From an uncultured Bacteroidota bacterium (GTDB taxonomy: Bacteria > Bacteroidota > Bacteroidia > 2-12-FULL-35-15): a stretch of DNA of 64,000 nt. Under the pieces are notes generated by a model that had not been told where the DNA came from, searched no databases, and saw nothing but the letters and a program-made list of their open reading frames with translations. The stretch is taken from positions 1 to 64,000 of the forward strand of contig CAINDA010000024.1 of NCBI GenBank assembly GCA_903847205.1, read 5' to 3'. Both the position numbers and the translations under genes were made by a program. Positions 40,572 to 42,122 of the stretch are shown piece after piece (position 1 is the stretch's first letter; each line of letters opens with the position of its first letter).

Positions 40572-41930
40572 ATGGAAAATGTAAGATTATTGTATGCAGT
40601 GCTTTTTCTTTCCTGCATTGGATTGTTTCATTCCTGCACTCCTAAGCTTGATGTCCCAAAGCCGGACGGCGGTACGGCGGATTTTTCTAAAACTATCGCC
40701 ATCGGCGGAAATTATATGGCAGGCTACCAGGACGGGGCTTTGTATCTAAAAGGACAAAAACTTTGTCTGCCTGCATTGCTAGCAGAACAATTCAAATTAG
40801 CCGGCGGAGGTGCATTTGGCCAGGCGTTGATGCCCGATAATGAGGGCTTAGGAATGAATGACAAAGTCTGGGTTGGAAAATATGTAAGCAGGTTTCATTT
40901 GAATTATAAAACAGACTGCCAGGGAGTTTCATCTCTGATGCCGATAAACAGTGCTGTTTCTTTAGGTGCTGCAACTCCTTATTTAACGGGGATGGCAGGT
41001 AACAGCGTCCAGAATTTTGCAGTACCCTTCGCGGTTACCGCCAATTATTTTACACCTTCTTTTGATGTTTTTTCTATTGGCAACAGCAACCCTTACTATA
41101 ACCGTTTTGCAAGCCAGCCGGGTGTATCAACAATTTTTGCTGATGCAAAAGCGCAAAATGCAAAATTTATCACTGCATGGCTGGGTATGGAAGATATTTA
41201 TAATTATGCCTCCAGCGGCGGAAAGGGGCCGGCAATTCAATCGTCCGCAAGTTTCAGTGCACGCTTAGATACATTGCTTGGCGGGCTGACAGCAAACGGC
41301 GCAAAAGGTGTTATTGCTACAATACCTGATTTTAGGTCATTCCCGTATTATACTTTAGTTGCTTGGGACAATGCTGTAATGACTAAGGTGCAGGCCGATT
41401 CATTGAATGATATTTATATTCCTGCGGGGCTTACTCAGATTCATTTTGCTCCGGGTCGTAATGGTTTTGTTATCAATGATGCTGCTGCGTTCGGCGGTGT
41501 CCGCCAGATGCATAAGGGGGAGTATATTACTTTGTCTGTACCGATTGATTCAATGAAATGCAATAAATACGGGTTATTAATTAATACCATTAATAACTGT
41601 TATGCGCTTGACAGCTCAGAAGTTTTTATGATTGATCAGGCGGTAAATACTTATAACGCTGTGATAACACAAAAAGCGGCCCAGTATAATTTTGCATTGG
41701 CTGATATGCATTCTTATTTCAATTCTGTTAAAACCGGCATCAAATGGAACGGTGCTGATTTTAACGCAGAATTTGTTACAGGAGGCTTTTTTAGTTTAGA
41801 CGGATACACACCCAATCAAAAAGGGTACGCATTAATAGCAAATGAATTTATTAAAGCGATTAACCTGAAATTTAATGCTGCTGTTCCTCCCGTTAACTGC
41901 GTTGAATGCGATGGTGTTTTGTTTCCATAA
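40572..41930 (+). CDS. SGNH/GDSL-family lipoprotein with degenerate active site
   Basis: 452 residues with a lipoprotein-like signal (LFLSCIGLFHSC). It matches the Bacteroidota lipoprotein branch of SGNH hydrolases along its length, but all three catalytic blocks are altered. Block I reads GGNYMAGYQDGALY, where the family has GNSLTAG, so Ser is Tyr48. Block III reads WLGMEDIYNYASSGG where the family has GNND, so Asn is Glu207. Block V reads SLDGYTPNQKGYALIANEF where the family has DG-x-H-P, so His is Thr413. The fold is therefore probably kept while esterase activity is probably lost. It may bind a lipid or glycan (inference). Confidence 0.82.
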   Translation: MENVRLLYAVLFLSCIGLFHSCTPKLDVPKPDGGTADFSKTIAIGGNYMAGYQDGALYLKGQKLCLPALLAEQFKLAGGGAFGQALMPDNEGLGMNDKVWVGKYVSRFHLNYKTDCQGVSSLMPINSAVSLGAATPYLTGMAGNSVQNFAVPFAVTANYFTPSFDVFSIGNSNPYYNRFASQPGVSTIFADAKAQNAKFITAWLGMEDIYNYASSGGKGPAIQSSASFSARLDTLLGGLTANGAKGVIATIPDFRSFPYYTLVAWDNAVMTKVQADSLNDIYIPAGLTQIHFAPGRNGFVINDAAAFGGVRQMHKGEYITLSVPIDSMKCNKYGLLINTINNCYALDSSEVFMIDQAVNTYNAVITQKAAQYNFALADMHSYFNSVKTGIKWNGADFNAEFVTGGFFSLDGYTPNQKGYALIANEFIKAINLKFNAAVPPVNCVECDGVLFP

Positions 41931-42049: not shown

Positions 42050-42122
42050 GGTACCCTAGCTCAGTTGGTAGAGCAAAGGACTGAAAATCCTTGTGTCACT
42101 GGTTCGATTCCAGTGGGTACCA
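42050..42122 (+). tRNA. tRNA-Phe (GAA)
   Basis: 73 nt. The acceptor stem is GGTACCC/GGGTACC. The D arm is GCTC AGTTGGTA GAGC. The anticodon stem-loop is AAGGA CTGAAAA TCCTT with anticodon GAA at 42083-42085, a variable loop GTGTC follows, and the T arm is ACTGG TTCGATT CCAGT. CCA is not encoded. Confidence 0.97.

Follow-up and report, generated by a model that had tools for sequence, protein, structure and literature searches.

A probable maintained SGNH pseudoenzyme lipoprotein of Bacteroidota and its candidate link to a FadL-type channel

SGNH/GDSL hydrolases, such as the Photobacterium J15 GDSL esterase (5xtu), Axe2 and the Vibrio thermolabile hemolysin (8h09), take the name SGNH from four active-site residues, Ser, Gly, Asn and His. 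In the SGNH lipase of S. rimosus, alanine at the Ser, Asn or His abolishes activity, and replacement of the Gly by Ala is tolerated (PMC10779480). SGNH subfamilies vary at these sites; SASA enzymes replace the block III Asn, and some SGNH enzymes do without the block V Asp (PMC9487903). GDSL pseudoenzymes are already known singly. Arabidopsis At1g54030, for example, was kept after the loss of its lipase activity and has a new cell function (PMC4757993). Unlike the protein described here, At1g54030 belongs to the eukaryotic secretory pathway, has no FadL or lipoprotein context and has a separate origin.

Partnerships between FadL-type proteins and lipoproteins have a precedent in Bacteroidota. 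In the BAM complex of Flavobacterium johnsoniae, the FadL-fold protein BamG holds the lipoprotein BamH (PMC12611786), although BamH has a reported carbohydrate-binding fold rather than an SGNH fold and works in protein assembly. In the same species, the FadL homologue Fjoh_4941 adjoins the lipoprotein Fjoh_4940; both rise on TamL depletion, and a functional link was suggested by the authors (PMC12045153). We liken this pair to the FadL-SGNH pairs described below by its neighborhood and not by SGNH family membership. The closest intact relatives of our protein (about 30-40% full-length identity) are SGNH lipoproteins of Chryseobacterium, Kaistella, Pedobacter and Chitinophagaceae, which share its lipoprotein signal and whose genes are paired with OmpP1/FadL. 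These relatives differ in that S, G, N and H are all present, the C-terminal CxxC described below is absent, and an adjoining BD-FAE hydrolase is mostly lacking.

The lipoprotein and its active site

We analyzed a 64-kb stretch of DNA, referred to as the window (G000:C24:1-64000), and focused on an ORF that occurs once in its 5.49 Mb Bacteroidota genome (Table 1). The encoded protein scored 34.1 bits against the Pfam family Lipase_GDSL (PF00657; cut-off 23.6), and no NCBIfam model was found for it or for four relatives. When modeled using AlphaFold2 (52 sequences; mean pLDDT 89.5, pTM 0.88), the protein is predicted to have the SGNH fold. The model matched 5xtu (Z 18.0, rmsd 3.8 over 243 residues), 4q9a (Z 17.9) and 8h09 (Z 17.8), and a model of the intact relative L172 matched largely the same set of solved GDSL structures. 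Pfam score and structural Z values together place the protein in the SGNH/GDSL superfamily by fold and ancestry. A profile search of solved structures returned only three weak GDSL matches (E 0.016 to 0.079). The single phmmer match among solved proteins, a weak stretch of a GH5 mannanase (E 0.009), was taken as chance.

Table 1. Features of the pseudo-SGNH gene and of the DNA 3' of it (window coordinates)
Feature	Position	Strand	Basis
Pseudo-SGNH lipoprotein gene, 452 aa	40572..41930	+	ATG start, unbroken frame, Pfam match, model
Signal peptide of the lipoprotein, with Cys22 (codon 40635-40637) as the lipidated residue	40572..40637	+	Cys22 invariant in family alignments
Asn47 in the block I column of the catalytic Ser (GGNY instead of GNSL)	40710..40712	+	Alignment with intact relatives
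Phe153 in the block II column of the oxyanion Gly (AVPF instead of GVPG)	41028..41030	+	Alignment
Glu207 in the block III column of the oxyanion Asn (GMED instead of GNND)	41190..41192	+	Alignment
Asp410, triad Asp	41799..41801	+	Retained in every member examined
Thr413, catalytic His column, block V	41808..41810	+	Alignment
C-terminal CxxC (Cys443, Cys446)	41898..41909	+	42/43 dead-clade members, 0/35 intact relatives
tRNA gene	42050-42122	+	Rfam RF00005, 72.3 bits
Secreted, highly repetitive protein, 4066 aa	43255-55455	+	Type-IX-style C-terminal tail

The mature protein begins at Cys22 with CTPKLDVPKP. Acidic lipoprotein export signals (LES) have been defined for surface lipoproteins of Bacteroidota (PMC5080379). 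Mature positions +2 to +6 (CTPKLD) showed no match to QKDDE, SDDDD or SDDFE, the signals defined in other Bacteroidota lineages, and given this N-terminus the lipoprotein may face the periplasm. A tRNA gene lies just 3' of the pseudo-SGNH gene; tRNA genes can mark rearrangement points. Farther 3' is a gene for a large, repetitive secreted protein.

To define the active-site columns, we aligned 160 relatives. Of these, 101 members were used for a tree, and the 35 with a complete S, G, N and H set gave the reference motifs GNSLT, GVPG, GxND and DGxH. The window protein shares with SGNH/GDSL hydrolases the fold (Z 17-18), the block order, the triad Asp, the Gly-rich block I and the surrounding family residues. 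It differs at all four naming positions, where Asn, Phe, Glu and Thr stand in place of S, G, N and H. Block V thus reads Asp-x-x-Thr rather than Asp-x-x-His. We looked for a shifted Ser in residues 40-60 and a shifted His in residues 395-430 of the window protein and found none. The remaining His residues (20, 109, 291, 314 and 380) are far from block V in sequence. Catalytic residues shifted to places near block I or V were therefore rejected as an explanation.

An earlier note on this DNA, made from the sequence alone, had described an intact plus-strand gene for a lipoprotein of the SGNH hydrolase family that had lost its catalytic Ser, Asn and His, and had named a catalytic Ser and His at nearby positions, or relaxed selection, as findings that would speak against it. 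The gene, its coordinates and strand, the family and the lipoprotein signal all stand, as does the change of Asn to Glu207. The note's Ser to Tyr48 was off by one; Tyr48 stands in the column of the GDSL Leu, and the Ser column in the alignment with the 35 intact relatives is Asn47. The core loss that it proposed holds, but a fourth position, the block II Gly, is replaced as well.

Because three residues that are essential in the S. rimosus lipase are gone, ordinary SGNH hydrolysis is very unlikely. Judged from these residues, the window protein very probably has no SGNH ester-hydrolyzing activity.

History of the losses and selection

We compared the window protein with 28 same-genus orthologues (n = 29 in total, 64-74% identity). 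Position 207 is Glu in all 29 sequences, and it is Glu or Asp throughout the larger group of degenerate proteins, which we call the dead clade. With Glu207 invariant in 29/29 orthologues, the replacements go beyond chance or sequencing error. Position 153 is Phe or Tyr in the genus, and position 47 is Asn in 20 sequences and Asp in 9. Position 413 is His in 26 of the 29. The exceptions are the window species (Thr), L002 (Asn) and L006 (Gln), whose codons all differ (ACA, AAC and CAG). Across the dead clade, 37 of 44 members keep His413, which was replaced on several occasions (by T, N, Q, C or Y), and position 47 can be N, D, S, T or G.

The tree of 101 rows was built without the catalytic columns and is a quick tree without bootstraps. 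On it, the dead proteins group together (43 rows including the window protein, SH-aLRT 94; 44 rows, SH-aLRT 98) and span at least 12 family codes. The degenerate label requires six changes across the 101 rows; by site, S requires 11 changes, G 8, N 7 and H 11. The same-genus residue counts and the tree point to a replacement of Ser, Gly and Asn that is ancient and common to the dead clade, and to a loss of His that is recent, sporadic and separate. The earlier note had taken the three losses to be a single event, which is not borne out. Its Thr413 is the correct residue, but this change is not a family trait.

Five members of the dead clade (L066, L069, L070, L071 and L073) have Ser47 and His413, with Glu or Asp at 207, and this part of the clade might keep residual or altered chemistry. 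A second degenerate SGNH group (L042, L127, L129 and L131), from large genomes of mostly 7-9 Mb, lies beside FadL with no adjacent alpha/beta hydrolase. Its degeneration is apparently an independent loss.

To assess selection, we estimated dN/dS in close same-genus orthologue pairs (dS 0.43-1.7). Values of 0.038-0.103 were obtained, similar to those of Chryseobacterium and Kaistella pairs of intact relatives (0.04-0.10, with one pair at 0.21). The check for purifying selection that the earlier note had called for thus gave no sign of relaxation, and these close-pair values led us to reject a pseudogene or relaxed selection. In pairs that include the window protein, silent sites are saturated (pS 0.71-0.84) and only pN/pS could be used; its values of 0.21-0.28 are ordinary for the genus (median 0.25).

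Several columns are conserved in the dead clade and different in the intact relatives, among them Gly46, Trp100, Met206, Glu207, Tyr260, Phe406 and Gln416. The C-terminal CxxC (Table 1), possibly a disulfide or a metal site, likewise separates the two. The family signature can be written as GG[N/D]Y ... GMED ... DGYHPNQKG ... NCxxC. Position 47 drifts while position 207 stays locked to an acid; constraint in the dead clade has been redirected and not simply relaxed.

Catalytic residues present in homologues are thus lost from a protein whose close same-genus relatives are under purifying selection. The earlier note's proposal of a maintained pseudoenzyme is supported by the losses shared across the clade, the dN/dS values, the newly fixed residues and the S. 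rimosus mutants (PMC10779480). Collectively, these comparisons provide good support for an ancient, selectively maintained pseudoenzyme.

Genomic context

In the intact relatives, the SGNH gene lies directly 3' of an OmpP1/FadL gene (PF03349). We surveyed 296 genomes of the class and detected the SGNH family in 104, FadL in 95 and both in 91. Dead members from other families adjoin both FadL and a secreted alpha/beta hydrolase (L157, L160, L165, L166, L185 and further loci). L164 has a dead SGNH gene with this cluster too, but it is cut by the contig end. The hydrolases contain a BD-FAE domain (PF20434) and a Por_Secre_tail domain (PF18962; type IX secretion). In the hydrolase of the window genome, the catalytic Ser (GASAG), Asp (DGTVP) and His (THVP) are all present.

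The window protein belongs with the FadL-linked SGNH lipoproteins by full-length homology and by its lipoprotein signal. Its own gene does not adjoin OmpP1/FadL. In the window genome, FadL (C44:251386-252615), the hydrolase (C8:5966-7003) and the SGNH gene (C24) are unlinked; in the genus, FadL and the hydrolase are usually adjacent (e.g., G007:C45, G026:C33 and G016:C37), and the SGNH gene is elsewhere. Because the gene is unlinked from FadL and the hydrolase in the genus, the FadL link rests on co-inheritance and on the arrangement in other families. Among 48 near-complete relatives, counted with cut-offs chosen by eye and with relatedness not removed, 27 have both the orthologue and FadL, 2 have just the orthologue, none has just FadL and 19 have neither. 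The corresponding counts for the orthologue and the hydrolase are 27, 2, 3 and 16.

The association of the dead SGNH with the hydrolase gave a Fisher p of 7.6e-6 with ancestry ignored. A tree-aware test of independent pairs, which had only 3-9 contrasts, gave no support for the link, and we dropped the statistical claim that hydrolase gain drove SGNH loss. That the dead SGNH and the hydrolase occur together is put forward only as a pattern at the level of the clade, and several degenerate SGNH lineages adjoin FadL without the hydrolase. In G304 and G253, the gene order is FadL, intact SGNH, hydrolase. In G295, an SGNH gene between FadL and the hydrolase has only the Asn replaced, by Glu. These three arrangements are possible intermediates.

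Other arrangements were also observed. Two genomes of the same genus (G008 and G030; loci L038, L039 and L041) have no SGNH orthologue of the window type, no such FadL and no such hydrolase; they contain a FadL of another type together with an SGNH that is degenerate in a different way (G,G,V,N), and G030 has an intact SGNH as well. In genomes of family code f33 (L126 in G269 and L234 in G067), two or more SGNH copies surround one FadL; the copies in G067 include one with GVND and one with GNND. Single-linkage neighbor clustering also grouped a 215-aa same-genus protein with the hydrolases. We discarded this protein because its similarity is confined to the C-terminal sorting region.

Proposed role and alternatives

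We suggest that an intact SGNH esterase and its FadL partner would act together, the esterase hydrolyzing a hydrophobic or acylated compound and the channel importing a product. A second, intact alpha/beta hydrolase of the BD-FAE type, secreted by the type IX system, may have taken over cleavage. Because this intact hydrolase is co-inherited in the dead clade, the pseudo-SGNH protein may have been freed from catalysis to serve as a binding or lid subunit of the OmpP1/FadL-type channel, with a hydrophobic or acylated compound as the putative ligand of the system. From these patterns, we infer that the window protein has lost its activity and physically contacts FadL, what kind of ligand it has, and that the BD-FAE hydrolase took over catalysis.

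A function of the SGNH lipoprotein that is tied to the FadL channel seems fairly probable to us, and the transfer of hydrolysis to the alpha/beta hydrolase is tentative. As a whole, we lean slightly toward the explanation that a maintained pseudoenzyme acts as a non-catalytic FadL partner while the BD-FAE hydrolase cleaves. A role as a ligand-binding lipoprotein, which the earlier note had raised, is plausible, and the likely role is narrowed by the FadL and alpha/beta hydrolase surroundings, which lay outside what that note could see. The widespread dead-SGNH family could have arisen in FadL-linked esterase operons after the alpha/beta hydrolase joined, and have become a substrate-binding or lid subunit with a role like that of SusD on SusC for hydrophobic or acylated substrates; we regard this extension as doubtful. 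The surface-lid model is weakened because the N-terminus has no known surface-export signal.

This N-terminus and the separation of the gene from FadL in the window's genus would also suit an outer-membrane lipoprotein that is kept for a structural or assembly function and has nothing to do with transport through FadL. BamH on the FadL-fold BamG offers a scaffold-type precedent in Bacteroidota (PMC12611786). We consider such a function unlikely in view of the shared inheritance with FadL among near-complete relatives (27 together vs 2 apart) and the clustering with FadL in other families.

Conserved acidic pocket residues can be catalytic. Glu/Asp207 is near invariant, Asp410 is invariant and His413 is kept in 37/44 members, and these residues together with Asn/Asp47 could make up a catalytic or metal site of a new kind in most clade members, with the window species derived and possibly inactive. 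However, position 47 wanders and His413 has been lost several times, which would be odd for catalytic groups, and we judge altered chemistry to be quite improbable. That the gene is decaying in the window species is highly improbable: the recent His loss here, and the loss of His in three species of the genus to three different residues, would fit decay, but the frame is intact, the close-pair dN/dS is 0.04-0.10 and the pN/pS of the window protein is ordinary. A working SGNH esterase with unusual residues at the same sites, for which the variation among SGNH subfamilies (PMC9487903) could be cited, is scarcely credible when none of the four naming residues remains and neither a Ser nor a His is found close by.

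The reading we prefer is a maintained pseudoenzyme that works with a FadL channel. In the open-licence literature, we found no description of the dead-SGNH family or of a FadL-SGNH pair, and none of a large bacterial GDSL pseudoenzyme clade that is strongly selected, lipid-anchored and co-inherited with a channel and a hydrolase; in that literature, such a clade would be new. A Lipase_GDSL assignment would name proteins of this kind lipases or hydrolases, and the window protein cannot be an ordinary enzyme of that sort. If the FadL link holds, hydrophobic compounds would be taken up in Bacteroidota by a system of two parts. An esterase would then have become a non-catalytic partner more than once, with apparent intermediates still alive, and both the change from enzyme to receptor and the imports of FadL channels in Bacteroidota would become testable.
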